Of a DNA stretch of 28,332 bases, positions 2 to 28,292 are shown in pieces. The stretch is from a virus: the IMG/VR virus record IMGVR_UViG_3300036832_000230, positions 1 through 28,332 of that record, one strand, 5' to 3'. The notes under the pieces were generated by a model. It saw only the letters and a list, made by a program, of their open reading frames with translations, was not told the DNA's origin and did not search any database. The position numbers were made by a program, and so were the translations under genes. Position 1 is the stretch's first letter, and each line of letters opens with the position of its first letter.

Positions 2-457
2 AGCGTCGGCAAGGGCCTCGACCATTGGTGCAAACTGCTGCGAACGAAGAAGGCAGAGCGCGGCTTCGACTATCGTTGCCACCTCCTGCCGCACGACATC
101 GAGCATCGAGAAATTTCTTCGGCCAGATCGCGCCGCCAAACCCTGGAGGACCTGATCCCGCACGATGAGCCGATCATCACCGTGCCGCGCATCTCATCGA
201 AGGAAGACAGCATCAACGCAGCCCGCTCGATGCTCGGCTCGTCTTGGTTCGACGCGGTTAAATGCAAGACCGGCTTGGCGATGCTGCGCGGCTACCACAA
301 GTCGGCGATGGGTCAGCCGGTGCACGGCCCTGGGCCGCACTCACATGGGGCCGACGCCTACCAGACTGCAGCCGTCGGCTTTCATCTGGTGACCGGCCTC
401 AGCGCCTCGCTATTGAGACGCGGCGCCATGCGGCGCCGCATCCGAGGCGTGATCTAA
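2..457 (+). CDS. terL: Terminase large subunit, C-terminal nuclease part (5' partial)
   Basis: Phage DNA-packaging motor subunit, of which only the last 151 residues are in the window; the frame is open from the left edge. The visible part fits the RNase H-like nuclease domain that cuts the concatemer during packaging. Family-like blocks are LPHDIEHREISS, SRRQTLEDLIP, a WFD followed by a GL..LRGYH stretch, and SHGADAYQTAAVGF near the C-terminus. The ATPase domain lies outside the window. The stop TAA shares bases with the stop of the minus-strand gene that follows, so the two genes converge with a four-base overlap. The family call rests on motif recognition, not on a search. Confidence 0.85.
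   Translation, partial: SVGKGLDHWCKLLRTKKAERGFDYRCHLLPHDIEHREISSARSRRQTLEDLIPHDEPIITVPRISSKEDSINAARSMLGSSWFDAVKCKTGLAMLRGYHKSAMGQPVHGPGPHSHGADAYQTAAVGFHLVTGLSASLLRRGAMRRRIRGVI
420..439. other. GC-rich hairpin at the terminase/PEP-CTERM junction
   Basis: GCGGCGCC (420-427) and GGCGCCGC (432-439) form a perfect 8-bp stem with loop ATGC. It lies just beyond the PEP-CTERM stop in that gene's direction of transcription. No T-run follows on either strand, so it could slow polymerase but is not a standard intrinsic terminator. It is also part of the terminase coding sequence. Confidence 0.3.
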
Positions 458-1164
458 AGAGCGAAACGCTGGCCGCGCTTCCGCATGCCGAGGAAGCTCA
501 AGGACGCCATGCCGATCAAGAGCATCGCCCAGGTCGATGGCTCCGGCACCCCACTCTCCATTGCCTGATTAAATCCAGTCACGCTGGCGCCGCCCCTCAA
601 CGCCAACGACGCCATCTCGGTCATCGAGAAGGGACCGCTCGCATCGAAGGCCGTGATCCGCGATCCGCTGAAGCTATCTGGATCGGTGACCGGCACGCCG
701 CTGACGCTCTCCAGGAGCGAGCCGGGCGTGTTGAGCGGATTTGCTCCCTGCGTGTTCGCCGTGTCGGCGAAGAACGACAATGTCGAAGTCCCTGAGCCGA
801 TCGCCGAATTGAAGGTGAGCGAACCGCTCGATCGGATGAAAGTGACCGGCGCGGCGAAGTCCGTATCACTGGCCAGGAGCGAGACGGTGATCGGCACGGC
901 GCGCGTGTTCTCGATATTGCTCGACGAGAGTTGCAGCTCGTTGGGATGCAGCGACGATTGCGCCAGGGTGAGCTGAACGAACGCGCCGCCAACCGTCTGA
1001 TCGATGGTGAGAAGGTTCTTCACGCCGCCTGAGACATCGCAACTCAATTCCCCATCGAAACAGGTGAAGGTCGAGCCGCCGGAGCTGATCGAGAGCTGCA
1101 GCGTGGCGTGCGCGGGCGCTGCAGCAAGCATGAGCGCAGCGAGAGAAACGAGAAGCTTGTTCAT
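454..1164 (-). CDS. Secreted PEP-CTERM sorting-signal protein (phage cargo gene)
   Basis: A 236-residue exported protein. It starts with a signal peptide (MNKLLVSLAALMLAAAPAHA, cleavage likely after AHA) and ends with a full PEP-CTERM tripartite signal: VPEPSTWAML, a hydrophobic helix of about 14 residues, and the basic tail MRKRGQRF. In bacteria with exosortase such proteins are exported, cut at the PEP motif and anchored or released at the cell surface, often with exopolysaccharide. The body is Ser/Thr/Gly-rich beta-type sequence with two cysteines (CFDGELSC). It is the only minus-strand gene on the left side and sits between terminase and portal, normally adjacent late genes. This is what a moron (independent cargo gene) looks like. 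I saw no exosortase here, so it must rely on the host's. Confidence 0.85.
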   Translation of the reverse strand: MNKLLVSLAALMLAAAPAHATLQLSISSGGSTFTCFDGELSCDVSGGVKNLLTIDQTVGGAFVQLTLAQSSLHPNELQLSSSNIENTRAVPITVSLLASDTDFAAPVTFIRSSGSLTFNSAIGSGTSTLSFFADTANTQGANPLNTPGSLLESVSGVPVTDPDSFSGSRITAFDASGPFSMTEMASLALRGGASVTGFNQAMESGVPEPSTWAMLLIGMASLSFLGMRKRGQRFAL

Positions 1165-1422
1165 TTGGATGGGACCCCTGGTGACGACAATCCGCCCCCC
1201 TTAATAGCGAGGCTATCCCGGTTTTGCGACGATGTCATGTTGGCGTCTTTTTCCCACCATTTCGGCTTGAGCCAATATGCGCCCTTCGATCGATCGCTCC
1301 TCAGCCACGCGATCATCGGAGGCATGACAGGACCAATGAAATCAGGGTAAGGTCTGCCCGCATTGGTCTGCTCTGAGGGACCGGCTGACCGCCGGTTGGT
1401 TCTCCTCGGAGCTGGATGCAAC
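1165..1422. other. Divergent intergenic region between PEP-CTERM gene and portal
   Basis: About 258 bases without a convincing gene, between the minus-strand PEP-CTERM start and the plus-strand portal start. It should hold the PEP-CTERM promoter and possibly one for the structural genes. I looked for -35/-10 pairs on both strands and found none with good spacing; TATTAA (minus, about 1202-1207) is a possible -10 without a good -35. A CGATCGATCG palindrome lies near 1288-1297. Confidence 0.4.
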
Positions 1423-3738
1423 GTGGCCATCGAACGCCTCTTCACCTTCAAGGACGGCGATACCGCCAGCGGCGCCCCATCATCCTACGATCCCGGCGAT
1501 CCCGCTTCCTACCAGCAATTCATCCACGCGATGATCAGCGATGCGAACGACTACGAGAATGACGTTCTCGCAGCCAAGCGCGATGAAGCGCAAAAATATT
1601 ACTACGGCATGCTGCCGTCGCTGAACGGCTCAAACTCGCCCAGCGACACGCTGATCGTCGAAGACCCCAACGCGACTTATGAGGACATCCTCGGCCCCAG
1701 CGAAGGCCCGACGCGCAGCTCGTTCGTCTCCACCGACGTGCGCGACGCCATCCTCACCATGCTGCCGAGCTTGGTCAGAATGTTCGCAGCGAGCGAGAAC
1801 GTCGTCTGCCTTGTGCCGCGCACCGAGGCAGACGAGGCGATGGCCGAGCAGGCGACGACCTACGTCAACTATTGTTTCTGGCAAGACAATGCTGGCTTCC
1901 TGACGCTGTACGGCGCCTTCAAAGATGCGCTCACCGTCAAGACCGGCTTCGTCAAATGGTGGACCGACACGACCCGCCAGACCAAGCAGAAGCAATTCCA
2001 AAACATCAGCCAGGAGCAGCTCCAGATGCTGCTCGGCGAGGACCACAACGCCAAGGTCGTTCCCGGCTCGCTGAAGTCCAACCCAGACAATCCAGGCTTC
2101 CTCGATGTCCTGATCCAGAGCATCGAGTCGAAACCGATCACCCATGTCGAAGGCGTGCCGCCGGAAGAGATGCGGCTCGATCGTTACGCGCGCCGCTTCA
2201 ATCAATCGCGCATCGTCGGCCATGAGCGCATCGTCACCCTCGATGAATTGACCGCGATGGGCTACGAGCGCGACCTCGCCGCCAACTTCCTGCAAAGCTC
2301 CGACGTGCAGAACTTCACCATGGAGGCGATGATCAGGAACCGTGGTCGCGGCATGGCGACCCGCGTCGGCGACGGCGTCCTTTATGGCGAGTTCTACATC
2401 AAGGCCGACGCCGACGGCGATGGCGTAAGTGAGCTGCGCTACATCTGCACCATGGGCGAGAACCATGCGATCGTCCGCGACCAACCGGCCAATCGGATCA
2501 AGTTCGCCCTCTTCAGTTGCGATCCGATCGGCCACACGATCGTCGGCGACTCGATCGCCGATCTGACGATCGACATCCAACGCATCAAGACCAACATGAC
2601 GCGCGGCGTTCTCGACAGCTTGGCCGAGTCGATCAACCCGAAGACCGTCGTCAATGAACTGGTCACCAATCTCGACGACGCCTTGAACGATGATTTGGGC
2701 GCGGTGATCAGAACCAGGGGCGATCCAGGCAACGCGGTGCAGTTCGCCACGACGCCGTTCGTCGGCCAGCAAGCTTTGCCGATCCTGGAATACCTCGATG
2801 CGGTGCAGTCGAAACGCACCGGCCTCAGTGATGCTGCGAAAGGGTTGGACCCGAAGGCGCTGCAAAGCTCGACCATGATCGGCGTCGAGGCGGTGATCAA
2901 CGGCGCGCAGGAAAGAACCGAACTGGTGGCGCGCGTGTTGGCGGAAACCGGCTATCGCGATTTGTTTCATGGCCTGTTCAACGAAATCGTCGAGAACGAG
3001 AACCAGCAACGCACGCTCAAGATCAACGGCAAATGGCAGACCTACAACACATCGATGTTCGACGCTGACATGTCGGTCGAGGTCAACCCGACATTGGGCA
3101 AGGGCAGCGACACGGTGAGGATGATGACGCTGCAGCAGATCAAGCAGGATCAGGCGCAGGTCTACCAGACGTTCGGGCCGTCCAACCCGGTCGTCGGCAT
3201 TCCAGAGATGATGAACACGATCAGCGATATGCTGGCGATCGCCAACATTAAGAATGTCAGCCGGTACTTCAAGACGCCAAGCCCGCAGGTTCTGCAGGCG
3301 ATGGCCTCCGCGCCGCATGAGCCTGACGCGATGACGATCGCCGCCAAGGCGAATTACGAGCGCGTCAAGATGCAGACCGCGCAGGCGATGGGCGAGCAGC
3401 AGTTCAACATCCAGAAGCAGGCCCAGGACGAGGCCTTCAGAAGGGACCGCCTCGCCCAGGAGCATGCCTATCAGGCCGATCAGATCAGGGTGCAGGAAGC
3501 CAAGATCGCGCTCGACCATCAGGTCGACATGGCGCAGATCGCCGCCGACATGGCGCAGGCCTCTGTGGCGCAGCCCGGCGAGCAGAAGCCGCCGCCGCCT
3601 CCTCAGGCCCCACAGATGCCGAGCGCGCCCCAAGGCCAGCCAGGAGCGCCCCCTGGCCCGCCTGGGCCGCCCCCACCTGGAGCAGGACCAGGACCGCCAG
3701 GGCCGATGGCCTTGCCTCCCAAGCCAGCCGGGCAGTAG
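1423..3738 (+). CDS. Portal protein (P22-type)
   Basis: The dodecameric ring at the capsid vertex through which DNA enters and leaves. From the GTG at 1423 it is 771 residues, close to the 725 of P22 gp1. Family-like blocks are FVSTDVRDAILTMLPSLVRMF (about residues 100-120), YVNYCFWQDN and FKDALTVKTGFVKWW. A long charged helical region rich in Q, A and D (about 640-715) matches the C-terminal barrel of P22-type portals. The last 50 residues are almost only Pro, Gly, Gln and Ala, an extra tail. I chose GTG 1423 because GGAG lies upstream at 1408-1411 and the product starts MAIERLFTF; an in-frame TTG at 1363 would add 20 residues without a clear ribosome binding site. A strong terminator follows directly. 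Confidence 0.88.
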   Translation: MAIERLFTFKDGDTASGAPSSYDPGDPASYQQFIHAMISDANDYENDVLAAKRDEAQKYYYGMLPSLNGSNSPSDTLIVEDPNATYEDILGPSEGPTRSSFVSTDVRDAILTMLPSLVRMFAASENVVCLVPRTEADEAMAEQATTYVNYCFWQDNAGFLTLYGAFKDALTVKTGFVKWWTDTTRQTKQKQFQNISQEQLQMLLGEDHNAKVVPGSLKSNPDNPGFLDVLIQSIESKPITHVEGVPPEEMRLDRYARRFNQSRIVGHERIVTLDELTAMGYERDLAANFLQSSDVQNFTMEAMIRNRGRGMATRVGDGVLYGEFYIKADADGDGVSELRYICTMGENHAIVRDQPANRIKFALFSCDPIGHTIVGDSIADLTIDIQRIKTNMTRGVLDSLAESINPKTVVNELVTNLDDALNDDLGAVIRTRGDPGNAVQFATTPFVGQQALPILEYLDAVQSKRTGLSDAAKGLDPKALQSSTMIGVEAVINGAQERTELVARVLAETGYRDLFHGLFNEIVENENQQRTLKINGKWQTYNTSMFDADMSVEVNPTLGKGSDTVRMMTLQQIKQDQAQVYQTFGPSNPVVGIPEMMNTISDMLAIANIKNVSRYFKTPSPQVLQAMASAPHEPDAMTIAAKANYERVKMQTAQAMGEQQFNIQKQAQDEAFRRDRLAQEHAYQADQIRVQEAKIALDHQVDMAQIAADMAQASVAQPGEQKPPPPPQAPQMPSAPQGQPGAPPGPPGPPPPGAGPGPPGPMALPPKPAGQ

Positions 3739-3873: not shown

Positions 3874-4155
3874 ATGTCGGCGCTGGGCAGTACGGACAAC
3901 GTCGAGAGCTTAAGCCAGCGTCGGGAACTCTCTGACGCCGCCCAGGTCTTGCTCGCCGACAAAGCCTTCAGCCACGCCCTGCTTGAATTGCGCAAACGCT
4001 GGTTCGGCGAGCTGATGCTGCTGCCGCACGCCAGCCCGAAGCAGGATGAATTGACCGCCCGCATCCGCGCGCTTGAAGCCTTCGGGACGGAACTCGCCGC
4101 GCTGGCGGAAAGCTACCGCAACGATCTGAAGATGAAGGCCCGCCATGCCTCCTGA
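3874..4155 (+). CDS. Small alpha-helical protein between portal and scaffold
   Basis: A 93-residue protein, mostly charged helix, with ALLELRKRWFGELMLL and later ELTARIRALEAF. I do not recognise a named domain. The start is an ATG directly after the large dyad. Its last 11 bases overlap the scaffold start at 4145, so the two are translationally coupled. Small helical genes are usual between portal and scaffold in phages with SU10-type capsids, so an assembly role is plausible but not shown. Confidence 0.65.
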   Translation: MSALGSTDNVESLSQRRELSDAAQVLLADKAFSHALLELRKRWFGELMLLPHASPKQDELTARIRALEAFGTELAALAESYRNDLKMKARHAS

Positions 4156-5266
4156 TGGCGAGAGCGGCCTGGACGAGGTCCGCGACGCCTTTGCCCAGGA
4201 AATCCCTGGCGCAACTCGGCAACGCGACCAGAGCGGGCGCTTCGTCTCGACGGCCAAGGCAGAGCCGATCTTCCAAGAGCGATCGGTCGAAGGCGACGAT
4301 CGCGGCGACACCTCGGACGGCGGGGCTGATCCCCGCTTTCTGGAGCAGGAGAGGAGAGTTGCAGATGGCCGGTCTGAAGAAGGGAGCGCCCCTCCAAAGA
4401 GGGTTCCCGCCGCCGACGGCGAGTCCGAAGCCGAACCCGATCTCCCAGAGCGGATTGGCGAGGAGCCAGATGCCGATCCCGATGCCGACAAAAAGCCCGG
4501 CGAAGAAGAAGACGCCTCCCCCCGGTACAAGGTTCAGGTAGACGGCCAGGAGCTGGAGGTCAGCCTCAACGAGGCCCTCCGAGGCTACGTCAGGGAAGAG
4601 ACTTTCAACCATCGCATGAACCGCATGGTTGAGATCGCCAAACAGGTCGACGCGCGCGCCGCCGAGGCGCAGGCCGCCCGCGACGGCTACATCCAGCTCT
4701 GCCACAACCAGGAGCAGGAGTTCGCCGCGCTGATCCCGCCGGAGCCAAACTGGGACCAACTGTTCGCAACCAACCCGCAGGGCGCGCATCAGCTCCAGAA
4801 GAACTACCAACACGTCTACGGCACCATCAACACCATCCGGCAACGACGCGCCCAGGCGCAGCAGGAGGCGATGAACGATCACGCCCAGCGCACCGCTGGC
4901 TATGCGCGGGCCGAGTTCGACAAGTTCAAGGCCAAGAACAAGCTCACCGATCAGCAATCGGTCGACAAGGCGCTGCAGTACATGCGCGCGACGGCGCTGG
5001 AGCTGGGCTTCAACGACGACGAGATCGGCACGACCTACGACGAGCGCATGCTGACCGCCCTGCATTGGGCGGCCAAGTTCCGCAACATGATGAGGAACAA
5101 GCCCCTGCCGGTGCAGCCAGACAAGGGCGTGGCGCTCGCTCCAGGCTCGGCGCAACGCATCGGCAACGGCGCCGCGCGCGGCATGAACGACGCCCAGAGA
5201 CGGCTCGCAGCCACCGGACGTGTGGACGACGCCGCCCTGGTGATGGCCCAGCTCATCCGCAGGTGA
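4145..5266 (+). CDS. Scaffolding protein (probable)
   Basis: Likely internal scaffold for procapsid assembly, 373 residues, directly upstream of the major capsid gene. The N-terminal 120 residues are strongly acidic and disordered (Glu, Asp, Pro, Gly). Next comes YKVQVDGQELEVSLNEALRGY, a motif I associate with this scaffold-like family, then a helical, Gln/Ala-rich region, and a C-terminal part with AATGRVDDAALVMAQLIRR. The acidic start, helical core, position and size fit a P22 gp8-like role. No protease motif is visible. Function is by position and composition. Confidence 0.7.
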   Translation: MPPDGESGLDEVRDAFAQEIPGATRQRDQSGRFVSTAKAEPIFQERSVEGDDRGDTSDGGADPRFLEQERRVADGRSEEGSAPPKRVPAADGESEAEPDLPERIGEEPDADPDADKKPGEEEDASPRYKVQVDGQELEVSLNEALRGYVREETFNHRMNRMVEIAKQVDARAAEAQAARDGYIQLCHNQEQEFAALIPPEPNWDQLFATNPQGAHQLQKNYQHVYGTINTIRQRRAQAQQEAMNDHAQRTAGYARAEFDKFKAKNKLTDQQSVDKALQYMRATALELGFNDDEIGTTYDERMLTALHWAAKFRNMMRNKPLPVQPDKGVALAPGSAQRIGNGAARGMNDAQRRLAATGRVDDAALVMAQLIRR

Positions 5267-5401: not shown

Positions 5402-6391
5402 GTGGCCAACACTACCAAAGTATCAGCCGCGTTTACTACGTATAACGCGACCGCAAACCGAGAAGACCTCAGCAACGCCATCTACAACATCGACCCATTT
5501 GACACTCCTGTTATGTCAAGTGCAAGAAGGCGTAATGTAAAGAACCGTATCTTCGACTGGCAGACCGAGTTCTTGCCTCTGGTTAACCTTGGCAATGCTC
5601 AGGTTGAAGGCTTCCAGCTCAATAATGCCCAGTCTACCCCGACCATCCGCCGCAACAATACTACTCAGATCAGTGAGCGCGACGCCACCGTGTCGGGTTC
5701 GCAGGAGGAGGCCGACGCGGCGGGCAAGGGTTCGGAGATGAGCCATCAGATGGCTCTCGCCGCCAAGGTCCTCAAAAGCGACATGGAGTCGATCCTGTGC
5801 AGCCGCCAAGCCCGCAATGACGGCAACGACACGGGACCGGCGGCGCGCACGACCGAAGCCATCGGACACTGGCTCGGCCGAGCGGTCGACAAGAACTCGA
5901 CCGTCGCCGCCGCGATCGCGCCCGGCACGGTAGTCACTGGCCTGCCGGTGGCGTCGACCGATCCGTTCCCGGTTCCATCAACGCCGGTCACGATTACTGA
6001 GGCTATGCTCGGTGACGCGATGCAACAAAGCTATGTCAACGGCGGATCACCGTCTATGTGGATAGTTCCGCCAGGGCCTAAGCGTACAATCAGCTCGTTT
6101 GTCGGCCGCTCGACTACACAAGTCTTGGTGGGCAAGACTGAAGTGGTTTCGACGATCGATGTGATCGCGACCGATTTCGGTAGAGTGAAGGTTGCGCCAA
6201 GCCGCTGGCTTCCGGTGGATGTCGGCTACTTGCTCGACCCAGACTATCTCGCCGTCGCCTTCTTCCGCGCCTTTAGGCAATTCTTGATGGCGCGGGTTGG
6301 CGACGCTGAGACGAGGATGATCGTCACTGAGTGGGGCGTGGAAATGAGAAATCCACTGGCCCACATCATGTTCAACGGCATCAAGAAGTGA
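5402..6391 (+). CDS. Major capsid protein (SU10 / DUF5309 type)
   Basis: Main shell protein, 329 residues, the usual size for this family. Characteristic blocks are the start (AAFTTYNATANREDLSNAIYNIDPFDTPVMSS would be the typical opening; key parts are NREDLSNAIYNIDPFDTP), then WQTEFLPLVN, EGFQLN, ISERDATVSGSQEEADAAG, MWIVPPGPKRTISSF and a C-terminal GVEMRNPLAHIMFNGI. The start is GTG, with AAAGGA nine bases upstream. The stop overlaps the next gene's GTG by four bases. The first third and a patch near 6000-6150 use more T- and A-ending codons than the GC-rich middle and the neighbours, giving a patchwork look. Confidence 0.9.
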   Translation: MANTTKVSAAFTTYNATANREDLSNAIYNIDPFDTPVMSSARRRNVKNRIFDWQTEFLPLVNLGNAQVEGFQLNNAQSTPTIRRNNTTQISERDATVSGSQEEADAAGKGSEMSHQMALAAKVLKSDMESILCSRQARNDGNDTGPAARTTEAIGHWLGRAVDKNSTVAAAIAPGTVVTGLPVASTDPFPVPSTPVTITEAMLGDAMQQSYVNGGSPSMWIVPPGPKRTISSFVGRSTTQVLVGKTEVVSTIDVIATDFGRVKVAPSRWLPVDVGYLLDPDYLAVAFFRAFRQFLMARVGDAETRMIVTEWGVEMRNPLAHIMFNGIKK

Positions 6392-16006: not shown

Positions 16007-17586
16007 TGCCAGGGCAACTGCAGCCGCTTGAACTTCCGCCGGGCGTCGTCGCCATGCCGACGAAGCGCATGCGGTCGAGCAATTGGTCCGAGGTCAATGC
16101 GGTGCGCTGGATCGAGGGGCAGATGCAGCCGATCGGCGGCCAGGAGCTGCTTACCTACGCGACGCCGTTCGCATCGCGGGTCCGCCGCATCCATACATGG
16201 ACGGACCTGTCGGGGCAGACCTACGTGGCCTACCTCTGCGAGACGAACGTCTATGTCGACAAGCAGGGGACGCTGACCGAGATCACGCCGACGGGCGGCA
16301 TGGCGCCGCCGCCTGTTCCGGTGGGCGGCTATGGCACGGGCTTGCATGGCAAGGGGCTGTACGGCAAGGCGCCGCGCCCTGGCGCAGGCTCGGAGATTTC
16401 ACTCACCATCCTGCCGCCGGTCTACTCGATGGACAATTTCGGCCAGCTCCTGGTCGTCATGACCTCGTCCGACGGCAGGCTCTTGTGGTGGGACCCGACC
16501 GCCGCCGCCGGGACATTGCTCACCCAGATCCCGGCCTCAGGCGGCGGCGGCCTATCGGGCAAAAGCCCGCTCGGCCGAGGCTTCGTGATCACGCCCGATC
16601 GGTTCGTGCAAATCTTCGGCATGTACAACGACGGCACGACCGGCGGCCCGATCGCGCCGGGACGCCGCCTTGGTTGGTGCGACCAGGAAGACCCGACCGA
16701 CTGGAATTTTTCTTCGGTGACCAATCAAGCCGGTTTCATCGACATCGAACCGGCAAGCCCGATCGTCACCGCGCAGGCCGGGCGCGCTGGCTTCGTTCTC
16801 CTGTTCACCGGCAAGCGCGCCTATGTGAGCCGCTACCTCGGTCTGCCCTATGTCTATAACGCGGAGGTGCTGGCCGACGACGTGACGCCATGGTCCCCGC
16901 AGTCGATCGCCACGACCTCGCAGGCGATCATGTGGATGTCGCAGCAAGGCTCGTACACTTTCGACGGCACGTCGATCACGCCGGTCCCCTGTCAAATCCG
17001 CACCTGGATCACCGACGACATCGACATCATGCAGGCGCGCTTCCAGGCCTGCGCCGCGCATCTCGGCGCGTTCAATGAGTTCTGGTGGTTCTTCCCGCAG
17101 AAAGACTCGCCGTTCAACACGCGCGCCGCCGTCTTCAATTACCGTGAGGGCTGGTGGTCGCAGGCGCGGATGCCGCGCTCGGCGGCGATCACATCGAGCT
17201 ACACGCAATCGTCGATCTTCGCCGACGGCCTGCAGGCCTACCGGCATGAGAGCGGCCAGTTCTTCAACGATTGCGATCTGCCCTGGGCCGACAGCTTCTC
17301 GCTCAACCTCAGTAGCGGCGGCAATCTCACCACGCTGAAGCAGATGCTGATCGACCTCGATGGCGATCCGGCGAACCTGCAATATCAGCTCTACACCCGC
17401 ATGACCCGGCTGGGGAAAGAGGTCGAGGGGATGACCGCGCCGGTCACCATCCGGCCCGACGGCTTCCTCGACTTCCGCACGACGGCGCGCGATATGCGCC
17501 TCAGATGCAGCGTCATCGCCAACCCGGTGACGCCGTTCACGCTCGGTCAATCGATGATCGATGTGGCGCAGAGGGGGCAGAGATAG
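16006..17586 (+). CDS. P22 gp10-like tail/DNA-stabilisation protein (tail tube closure)
   Basis: A 526-residue beta-rich protein. The opening LPPGVVAMPTKRMRSSNW followed by NAVRWIEGQMQPIGGQ is typical of P22 gp10-like proteins that close the short tail after packaging. Later features are GYGTGLHGKGLYG, SYTFDG, and GAFNEFWWFFP near residue 360, consistent with a beta-propeller. It starts in a TGATG overlap with the fibre and ends in a TAGTG overlap with the HNH gene. Confidence 0.75.
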   Translation: MPGQLQPLELPPGVVAMPTKRMRSSNWSEVNAVRWIEGQMQPIGGQELLTYATPFASRVRRIHTWTDLSGQTYVAYLCETNVYVDKQGTLTEITPTGGMAPPPVPVGGYGTGLHGKGLYGKAPRPGAGSEISLTILPPVYSMDNFGQLLVVMTSSDGRLLWWDPTAAAGTLLTQIPASGGGGLSGKSPLGRGFVITPDRFVQIFGMYNDGTTGGPIAPGRRLGWCDQEDPTDWNFSSVTNQAGFIDIEPASPIVTAQAGRAGFVLLFTGKRAYVSRYLGLPYVYNAEVLADDVTPWSPQSIATTSQAIMWMSQQGSYTFDGTSITPVPCQIRTWITDDIDIMQARFQACAAHLGAFNEFWWFFPQKDSPFNTRAAVFNYREGWWSQARMPRSAAITSSYTQSSIFADGLQAYRHESGQFFNDCDLPWADSFSLNLSSGGNLTTLKQMLIDLDGDPANLQYQLYTRMTRLGKEVEGMTAPVTIRPDGFLDFRTTARDMRLRCSVIANPVTPFTLGQSMIDVAQRGQR

Positions 17587-18059
17587 TGCAATTGCGCGAT
17601 CCAGTGAGCTTCTTTGAAGCCAATTACATGCCCGAACCGAACTCAGGCTGTTGGGTATGGCTGCGCGGCCTCAACAAGGATGGCTATGGATCGATGTCCC
17701 TGAGGTCGCGCTCCCAAACGACACATCGGTTTGCTTGGCGGCTCTATCGGGGACCGATCCAGAAGGGAGTGTGCGTCTGTCATCGATGTGATGTGCGGGC
17801 GTGCGTGAACCCTGATCATTTGTTCTTAGGCACGCCCAAGGACAATGACGCCGATATGCGGGCCAAAGGCCGTGCGATTTTGCCGCGTCCTCGGCATGGC
17901 GAACTCAATGGACGAGTTAAGCTCAGGGCAAACGATGTCGCGGAAATTAGACGCCGGAAAAAGAGTGGCGAGAATTTGAGGACACTCGCCAAAGAATACG
18001 GCGTCACTCGGTTCACAATCTGCAAGATCGCTTCTGGCGCACGATGGGGGCAACGCTGA
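17586..18059 (+). CDS. HNH homing-type endonuclease
   Basis: A 157-residue protein. Residues about 20-95 are an HNH_3-type nuclease: GCWVWL, HRFAWRLYRGP, CHRCDVRACVNPDHLFLGT (the core H..C..C..NPDHL). The C-terminus (about 105-155: HGELNGRVKLRANDVAEIRR, LAKEYGVTRFTICKIASG) is a helix-turn-helix modular DNA-binding domain often linked to such nucleases. Start GTG 17586 overlaps the previous stop, and the end overlaps the next start. It is AT-richer than its neighbours and breaks the run of tail genes, so it looks like a free-standing mobile gene fitted in without loss. Confidence 0.85.
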   Translation: MQLRDPVSFFEANYMPEPNSGCWVWLRGLNKDGYGSMSLRSRSQTTHRFAWRLYRGPIQKGVCVCHRCDVRACVNPDHLFLGTPKDNDADMRAKGRAILPRPRHGELNGRVKLRANDVAEIRRRKKSGENLRTLAKEYGVTRFTICKIASGARWGQR

Positions 18060-26334: not shown

Positions 26335-26601
26335 TCACAGCGCCTCCAGGTACTCAGGCTCAAGGCTCGTCAAAATGATCGAGTGATAAGCGCGGCCATA
26401 CGGTCCCCAGACGACAAGCATGCCGAAGCTGCCGAACCCGATCACGATGAAATCAGTGTCCATCATCACAGCTCCTCCCATCAGCTCGGCGTCGCCGGTC
26501 ACGACCACGCCCCGAAGGTCCTCCAATGCGACAGGGGCCGCCAGCTCTTTCGAACTGACGGCCCCATCGCCTACCGGGATGATGGTGAGCGCGCCTCGCA
26601 T
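26335..26601 (-). CDS. Small hydrophobic protein downstream of integrase
   Basis: An 88-residue protein whose ATG overlaps the integrase stop (ATGA). It is beta-rich and hydrophobic, with MMDTDFIVIGFGSFGMLVVW and a tail YHSIILTSLEPEYLEAL. No signal peptide, no clear membrane helix and no recognised domain. Coupled translation with the integrase is the main support. Confidence 0.55.
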   Translation of the reverse strand: MRGALTIIPVGDGAVSSKELAAPVALEDLRGVVVTGDAELMGGAVMMDTDFIVIGFGSFGMLVVWGPYGRAYHSIILTSLEPEYLEAL

Positions 26602-27734
26602 CAGGCGCTGCGAGCGAAGAACGCCTCGCCGCCCTCGGCGGCTTTCTTGTCGTTGAAGCTCTTCACGTACTTGGCCGCAACCGCGATGGTCAGGCCGAAG
26701 TGCGCCATGATGTGCTTCTCACTGGCGCCAGCCTCCAGAGCGCGCGTGATGGCGGTATGGCGCAGGCCGTGCGCGGTGCAATCGGGGATGCCGATCTCAT
26801 CGCAGGTGCGCGCCATCCAGCCGCTGACGTAGCCAGCGTCGAGCTGCTCGCCGGTCTTCTCGGCGCCGAAGAACGTCGTCTTGCCGCATGGGCCAGCGTC
26901 GATCGCCGCCTTCAGCGAAGGCGTGACCGGAACGGTGAAGCCCTTGCCGGTCTTCTGCCGTTTGGTCGAGATGCACAGCTCGCCCTTCGGGTTGGTGAAC
27001 AGGTCCGAGGGAGCTGCGGCGCAGGCGTCGACGCAGGCCATGCCGAGCTGCATCAGCTCGTAGATGATCCGGCCGCGCGTGCCGATCGGGAAGGCGTTCT
27101 CCCAGACGCGCTGATTGGCAGGCGTCCAGGCGATATGGCCTTCCTCCTCGTCGCTACGGTCGTGGCGCTTGACGCCGACGGCCGGGTTCACCAGGACGAG
27201 CCTGCCGTCGAGGGCCTTGCTGGCCTCAGAGCTGCCCGCCCATGCGTACAGGGCCTCGATGACGGCGACGGCCTTGTTGGCCATCGCCTTGGCGTCTGGG
27301 TCCGCATCGCGGATGTCGATCACGTCCTGGCTATTGATGGCGCGGAACGGCACATCGCCCTGCTTTAGGCCGATGCGGGTCAAGATGGTGCGATGCTGCT
27401 TCTTGGTGGCGTCGCGGAAGCCCTTGCCGGTCTTGGCCGCCATCCAGGCGAGATAGGCGTCGATCAGCCACTGCAGGCTCGTCGGATCGGTGCGGCCAAC
27501 CTTGACCGTCTTCTTCGGCGCGGCGGCGTTGGGGCGGCCATAGAGGGCGGCGCGATAGGCCTCGATGAAGCCCACCGAGTTCGGCTCGCCGAGGATCGGA
27601 ATGCGCTTCTCATGGCCGAGGCGGAAGTAGTATTTTTTGGTCCCATTGCGGTGATCGATCTCGCAGTGGAGGCCTTTGCGACGCACCATGGTTTCCCGAT
27701 CGGCGTCGCTCAATTTGCGTGAAAAAGTAGTCAT
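26601..27734 (-). CDS. int: Tyrosine integrase with a substituted catalytic arginine
   Basis: A 377-residue phage-type tyrosine recombinase for site-specific integration. The N-terminal arm domain covers about 1-80 (GTKKYYFRLGH), the core-binding domain about 85-180 and the catalytic domain 200-360. Visible active-site parts are K261 or K264 in RQKTGKG, H322 and R325 in AHGLRH, H345 in MAHFG and the nucleophile Y356 in KYVKS. The first arginine, expected in the TGxR motif, is missing: the sequence is LGMACVD, with A233 (codon at 27036-27038) at its place. The gene is full length and has no frame break. Start ATG 27734 follows the upstream stop directly. Confidence 0.88.
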   Translation of the reverse strand: MTTFSRKLSDADRETMVRRKGLHCEIDHRNGTKKYYFRLGHEKRIPILGEPNSVGFIEAYRAALYGRPNAAAPKKTVKVGRTDPTSLQWLIDAYLAWMAAKTGKGFRDATKKQHRTILTRIGLKQGDVPFRAINSQDVIDIRDADPDAKAMANKAVAVIEALYAWAGSSEASKALDGRLVLVNPAVGVKRHDRSDEEEGHIAWTPANQRVWENAFPIGTRGRIIYELMQLGMACVDACAAAPSDLFTNPKGELCISTKRQKTGKGFTVPVTPSLKAAIDAGPCGKTTFFGAEKTGEQLDAGYVSGWMARTCDEIGIPDCTAHGLRHTAITRALEAGASEKHIMAHFGLTIAVAAKYVKSFNDKKAAEGGEAFFARSA

Positions 27735-27739
27735 TTCCC

Positions 27740-27973
27740 TTACCAGTTCTTCCAGTCACGTGCCTCCCGCTTTTCACTCAGCTCAGGGCTGTCGGCATCC
27801 GGTGCGGGAGGATGGAACCGAGCCAACTTCTCCATGTAAGCGTCGTCCAGCGGGATTACAACGGATGTATCCCCGGCGATCTCCAGGCGCACGATCTTCG
27901 CCCCCATGTACTTGGCGGCGCGGATCAGCCTGACGTAGTCCCGCTGCAGCGGGCCTCTGGCTTTAGTGGGCAT
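27740..27973 (-). CDS. Small protein upstream of integrase
   Basis: A 77-residue protein. The middle, DYVRLIRAAKYMGAKIVRLE followed by AGDTSVVIPLDD, matches a short helix-plus-strands pattern common just before integrases in alphaproteobacterial prophages. It might be a recombination directionality factor, but it has no recognisable winged-helix motif. GGAGG lies six bases upstream; it overlaps the previous gene by eleven bases and ends five bases before the integrase. Confidence 0.6.
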   Translation of the reverse strand: MPTKARGPLQRDYVRLIRAAKYMGAKIVRLEIAGDTSVVIPLDDAYMEKLARFHPPAPDADSPELSEKREARDWKNW

Positions 27974-28292
27974 CAGGAGCCTCCAGGGCGGCCTTCAGCA
28001 GGAGGCGGCCCTTTGCCTCATCGTCGGCCTCGCCCCCCTCCACGTCGGCCCTGGCGAGGCCTGGGAGGGGCATGTCAATCCCGAAATTCGGGAGTTCGTC
28101 GGGAGTAGCGAACCGGCTCGCTACAGTGCTGGGCCGGTTCGCTACAGCGTTTCGGACAGAAGGGAGTTTCTGCCCTACTCCGCACCGCTGCGCCCAGGGG
28201 TAGGCCCAGTGGCTATAGCGGTGACAGGCCTTCGCCTGGGCGGGCGTCTGGACCGTCAGGGCGAGCGTCAGGGCCAGGGCGATCGATTTCAT
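27963..28292 (-). CDS. Secreted protein with CHRYSHW motif
   Basis: A 109-residue exported protein. It has a signal peptide (MKSIALALTLALTVQTPAQA, cleavage likely after AQA), then ACHRYSHWAYPWAQRCGVG. The mature domain with Cys-His-Tyr-Ser ... Tyr-Pro ... Arg-Cys is a pattern I recall from small alphaproteobacterial and phage proteins, with one likely disulfide. The rest is disordered (Pro, Ala, Asp, Glu). As a secreted product in the lysogeny arm it may act on the lysogen surface, but no function is known. GGAG lies seven bases upstream. Confidence 0.65.
   Translation of the reverse strand: MKSIALALTLALTVQTPAQAKACHRYSHWAYPWAQRCGVGQKLPSVRNAVANRPSTVASRFATPDELPNFGIDMPLPGLARADVEGGEADDEAKGRLLLKAALEAPDAH
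28105..28145. repeat. 13-bp inverted repeat inside the secreted-protein gene
   Basis: GTAGCGAACCGGC (28105-28117) and GCCGGTTCGCTAC (28133-28145) are perfect inverted copies around a 15-base spacer. TCGCTACAG also occurs twice in the same direction (28118 and 28139). It lies in the coding region for the disordered part of the secreted protein. It could be an operator-like site, a hairpin in the mRNA, or a repeat inserted in flexible coding sequence. Confidence 0.6.

Follow-up and report, generated by a model that had tools for sequence, protein, structure and literature searches.

The window analysed here, a virus record from IMG/VR with 28,332 bases, carries near its left end what is very probably a true, selected and mobile phage-borne PEP-CTERM gene. 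On balance, this is best read as an accessory "moron" gene that would supply a substrate to the exosortase of the host, and by which a protein of the phage's choosing may be placed on the host envelope. The features concerned are:

2–457, plus strand: terminase large subunit, C-terminal fragment at the contig edge (phrog_2472; L012 homologue)
454–1164, minus strand: phage PEP-CTERM protein gene, family A, 236 aa (ORF call, PF07589, viral homologues)
457–549, minus strand: PEP-CTERM sorting signal, residues 206–236, comprising VPEPSTWAM, hydrophobic helix and basic tail (PF07589, TIGR02595)
550–1104, minus strand: mature ectodomain, residues 21–205, predicted beta-sandwich (AlphaFold, composition)
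1105–1164, minus strand: putative signal peptide, residues 1–20, MNKLLVSLAALMLAAAPAHA (read by eye; A18 and A20 invariant)
1161–1430, minus strand: small ORF of 89 aa, conserved, which precedes the PEP gene on its strand and runs antisense within the terminase–portal gap
1423–3738, plus strand: portal protein, its start placed at the GTG at 1423 by comparison with homologues (phrog_1216, E 3.5e-118; alignment)
4145–5266, plus strand: scaffolding protein (phrog_3927)
5402–6391, plus strand: major head protein (phrog_1328)
26601–27734, minus strand: tyrosine integrase, indicating temperate potential (phrog_1, E 7.7e-26; PF00589 at 26.0 bits, slightly under the cut-off of 27.1)

The PEP-CTERM protein

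A sequence-only reading of this DNA had proposed the gene, and ORF calls bear out its coordinates, strand and reading frame. The complete C-terminal motif that it described was recovered by both PF07589 (residues 206–230, 27.1 bits against a Pfam cut-off of 20.7) and TIGR02595 (23.5 bits, cut-off 16), and corresponds to a helix at residues 209–235 in the AlphaFold model; the score with the PEPxxWA-CTERM model (NF035944) was 27.7, under the curated cut-off of 35. The N-terminal signal peptide that had been claimed was likewise found, by eye, as residues 1–20 with an AHA end, of which A18 and A20 are invariant among 44 homologues, and the model places a helix at residues 2–13 within it.

The structure, predicted from 44 sequences (mean pLDDT 83, pTM 0.76), consists of the N-terminal helix, approximately 12 strands and the C-terminal helix. 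Foldseek returned likeness at the level of fold only, to jelly-roll sandwiches with TM-scores of ~0.3–0.4, the best matches including carbohydrate-binding modules, a hyaluronan-binding module and tail-fibre domains; carbohydrate binding by the ectodomain would be compatible with such a fold, which does not demonstrate it. Ser, Thr and Asn make up 32% of the mature part, versus 17% in the other proteins of the window, Lys and Arg are few, and Cys35 and Cys42 are invariant in the aligned family A ectodomains. A PDB sequence search with the protein found nothing. Removed from its tail, the ectodomain gave no NCBIfam match, so the FxDxF and PepA-type matches of the whole protein were attributed to the tail and rejected as an identity for the ectodomain.

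This arrangement of tripartite C-terminal tail, N-terminal signal peptide (read by eye) and Ser/Thr/Asn-rich ectodomain is that of the PEP-CTERM/exosortase (EpsH, XrtA) sorting system defined by Haft et al. 2006 (PMC1569441), in which a composition rich in Ser, Thr and Asn and poor in Lys and Arg was described, and in which the word "phage" is absent. The present protein shares with those substrates the signal peptide, the PEP motif followed by helix and basic tail, and an ectodomain that is rich in Ser/Thr and has no known relatives, but differs from the chromosomal system in being encoded by a phage that has no exosortase of its own, and in belonging to an ectodomain family not found in the bacterial genomes covered by a pattern scan. 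The gene differs also in its upstream region, where a sigma-54 site, as in many proteobacterial PEP-CTERM genes, showed no clear excess over shuffles.

Genomic setting in the window

That the gene is phage-borne, as had been asserted, is supported by the content of the record, whose genes run from the terminase fragment through portal, scaffold, major head, and tail and ejection genes to an integrase near the end. Its placement on the opposite strand between terminase and portal also holds: the right flank is the portal gene (phrog_1216), and the left is identified as the terminase large subunit because its full-length homologue in L012 matches PF03237 and phrog_2. The PEP gene lies tail-to-tail with terminase, the two stop codons overlapping (454–456 and 455–457), and upstream of the divergent portal gene; the integrase is far from it within the window.

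The small ORF at 1161–1430 gave no Pfam or PHROG match, and has in-frame homologues in ~20 related phages, with the PEP gene present or absent. Its core reads RPYPDFIGPVMPPM...YWLRPKWW, and distant copies lie at L085:10347–10481 and L097:18770–18922. A scan for sigma-70 promoters and terminators around the PEP gene gave nothing beyond chance, and a conserved block upstream of portal, considered as a promoter, was rejected since it recurs in too few loci. Elsewhere in the window, 27963–28292 (minus strand), near the integrase, encodes a small protein with a signal-peptide-like N-terminus, which has homologues in other PEP-CTERM phages and no Pfam or PHROG match, and an HNH-like ORF sits among the structural genes at 17505–18059 (plus strand), a relative of which adjoins the PEP gene in L001/L013.

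The PEP gene occupies the terminase–portal gap in 8 records, the window included. This gap is regarded as a cargo slot: Ochrobactrum phage OH has terminase directly adjoining portal, and many relatives show either a short gap or other ORFs within it. By eye, the gap in L112, L113, L127, L138, L140, L172 and L174 contains HNH endonuclease-, DNA methyltransferase- and endolysin-like ORFs, which marks it as an apparent hot spot for insertion among these phages. The PEP gene is absent at the same site in close relatives, as expected of a moron.

Relatives, selection and mobility

The possibility that the gene is seen only in this genome, which would have told against the sequence-only reading, is excluded by a search of the protein and its position in relatives, in which family A homologues were found in 52 IMG/VR loci. 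Once a handful of almost identical pairs and a single degraded, fragmentary locus are allowed for, ~45 of these are distinct. Aligned members show 38–86% identity with a mostly intact tail, PF07589 being matched by 43 of 44, and pairwise dN/dS values of 0.08–0.32 indicate purifying selection. Across the 44 sequences P207 and E208 never change and W212 is kept in >90%, while the hydrophobic helix is free to vary, a pattern that points to recognition rather than mere anchoring. Given this conservation, and that 14 control genomes yielded 0–1 sub-threshold PEP-CTERM match, chance origin of the tail is excluded.

Outside IMG/VR, no family A member was detected in 84,980 GTDB genomes by a scan with two 8–9-residue patterns, which distant relatives could escape, and tblastn found no relatives among INPHARED phages or PLSDB plasmids. 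Within the viral records, the gene occupies several sites in several phage lineages: after portal, beside integrase, or near tail-fibre/endolysin (lysis), helicase/replication or recombination genes. The family A gene tree mixes these positions, requiring 21 changes, with labels assigned by hand, against the least possible 7.

Family A is accompanied by other PEP-CTERM genes. In 8 records a second, adjacent gene encodes an ectodomain unrelated to family A, and a family B ("ITVENIGSI") was identified in portal relatives, at 52 loci. Profile comparison aligned A and B mainly in the signal peptide and tail, and the structure prediction for family B was of low confidence. Among 14 records selected by portal, each of at least 30 kb and not picked for the PEP gene, 8 gave a PEP-CTERM match over the cut-off. 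No credible PEP-CTERM case emerged when the retrieved portions of six relatives with annotation were searched by regular expression; the two pattern matches were discarded, neither having a hydrophobic helix or a signal of this type. The tagged genes in ~100 other virus contigs suggest that phages may routinely remodel the host surface.

Exosortase and host

Exosortase (PF09721) was found neither in the window nor in the 91 other phage records searched, so any such enzyme must come from the host. The host exosortase probably handles the phage protein. The hosts themselves are probably Alphaproteobacteria, on the evidence of portal relatives: the best named-host matches in INPHARED are Ochrobactrum and Sinorhizobium phages (36–40%), and plasmid matches are limited to Sinorhizobium/Ensifer remnants (~26–32%), with no relatives of the window's portal found in GTDB genomes. 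A primase-like protein of another PEP-CTERM phage lineage points to Rhizobium phages. The samples that yielded the PEP-CTERM phage records are presumably soil, from their IMG sample series.

Proposed role and alternatives

In an infected cell or lysogen, the PEP-CTERM protein would be exported via the Sec route and retained in the inner membrane by its tail. Host exosortase would then cleave at the PEP motif, and the beta-sandwich would be passed to the outer surface or the exopolysaccharide. Display would be most likely in the prophage state, and the added surface protein may alter adhesion, the matrix, or the access of competing phages; an effect on biofilm may also be envisaged.

The sequence-only reading had cast this as lysogenic conversion, which is favoured but unproven. 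In its support, the gene is accessory and recurrent, the phage has an integrase, and across integrase-bearing records a PEP gene of family A or B lies within 1 kb of the integrase in 11 of 24, where random placement expects 2.8, a figure to be taken as enrichment rather than strict probability because the records are related and the events not independent. Within the sample, however, lysogeny does not look general: a tyrosine integrase was recognised in 10 family A records out of 47 (window included) and, for family B, in 15 out of 35, and a check of 22 records for a serine recombinase gave one. Many of the 37 family A records in which no tyrosine integrase was seen are fragments, but several span 41–64 kb, and such long records speak against a prophage role throughout the sample. 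That the protein acts mainly in the lysogen is about as likely as not. In one record of 52,042 bases (G062; L120/L184/L211), two integrase genes each lie beside a family B PEP-CTERM gene, an arrangement that may represent two tandem prophages, a duplication or a joined assembly.

The main rival is that the exosortase substrate acts in lytic infection, blocking or masking a receptor against competing phages (superinfection exclusion) or aiding release from the matrix, and is not a lysogeny gene. This is possible, though rather unlikely: the many records of 41–64 kb without a recognised integrase accord with it, as does the co-direction of the PEP gene with tail-fibre and lysis genes in several phages, whereas the enrichment beside integrase and the antisense orientation to the packaging genes in the window argue against it. 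Late-region placement is moreover shared by morons of temperate phages, such as bor and lom of lambda. Lambda Bor and Lom are envelope proteins of lysogenic conversion, and the PEP gene is like theirs in being a scattered, phage-specific addition that encodes an envelope protein and sits amid late genes or close to integrase, and unlike them in that an exosortase sorting signal replaces lipoprotein or outer-membrane barrel signals.

It is improbable that the tail serves simply as an anchor in the inner membrane or periplasm with exosortase uninvolved. A C-terminal helix with a basic end would suffice for that purpose, but it is the Pro and Glu of the motif that are invariant and the helix that varies, and unrelated ectodomains carry the same PEPxxWA tail. 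Less probable still is a virion decoration protein, exported and assembled onto particles, or a carbohydrate-binding part of head or tail; the jelly-roll type sandwich and the weak matches to carbohydrate-binding modules and tail-fibre domains invite the idea, but those matches reach TM-scores of ~0.4 at most, and a signal peptide with a C-terminal anchor is wrong for a virion assembled in the cytoplasm. Least probable of all is a host gene caught by accident, as passenger DNA or in a chimeric assembly and without phage function, for although PEP-CTERM proteins are normally chromosomal, the gene recurs under purifying selection in viral contigs that number in the dozens and come from many samples, is found in none of the scanned genomes, and shares a stop-codon overlap with terminase.

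Relation to known systems and significance

No study of phage-borne PEP-CTERM proteins was found in full-text searches, whose coverage leaves out most subscription journals. One related report lists, among viruses of Yellowstone hot springs, 13 TIGR03118 proteins with a terminal exosortase-interaction domain as host-derived (PMC11003980); these are also viral, but belong to a different family and are given one sentence, with no study of function, position or family. In Zoogloea, PEP-CTERM proteins are needed for floc formation according to Gao et al. 2018, as cited in PMC12642866, and are likewise tied to exopolysaccharide and aggregation, but are chromosomal.

Work on exosortase sorting has so far treated it as a chromosomal system, found in bacteria that form exopolysaccharide, and most of its many substrates have no known role. 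It is about equally plausible as not that soil phages, probably of Alphaproteobacteria, keep a pool of exosortase substrates that is specific to phages, exchangeable and varied in ectodomain, as a general takeover of PEP-CTERM sorting to dress the host surface and matrix. If so, this selected pool would tie exosortase sorting to phage–host conflict and open a new route to lysogenic conversion via the envelope of soil bacteria, with compact, single-gene proteins that would be well suited to measuring both exosortase processing and the benefit it may confer.
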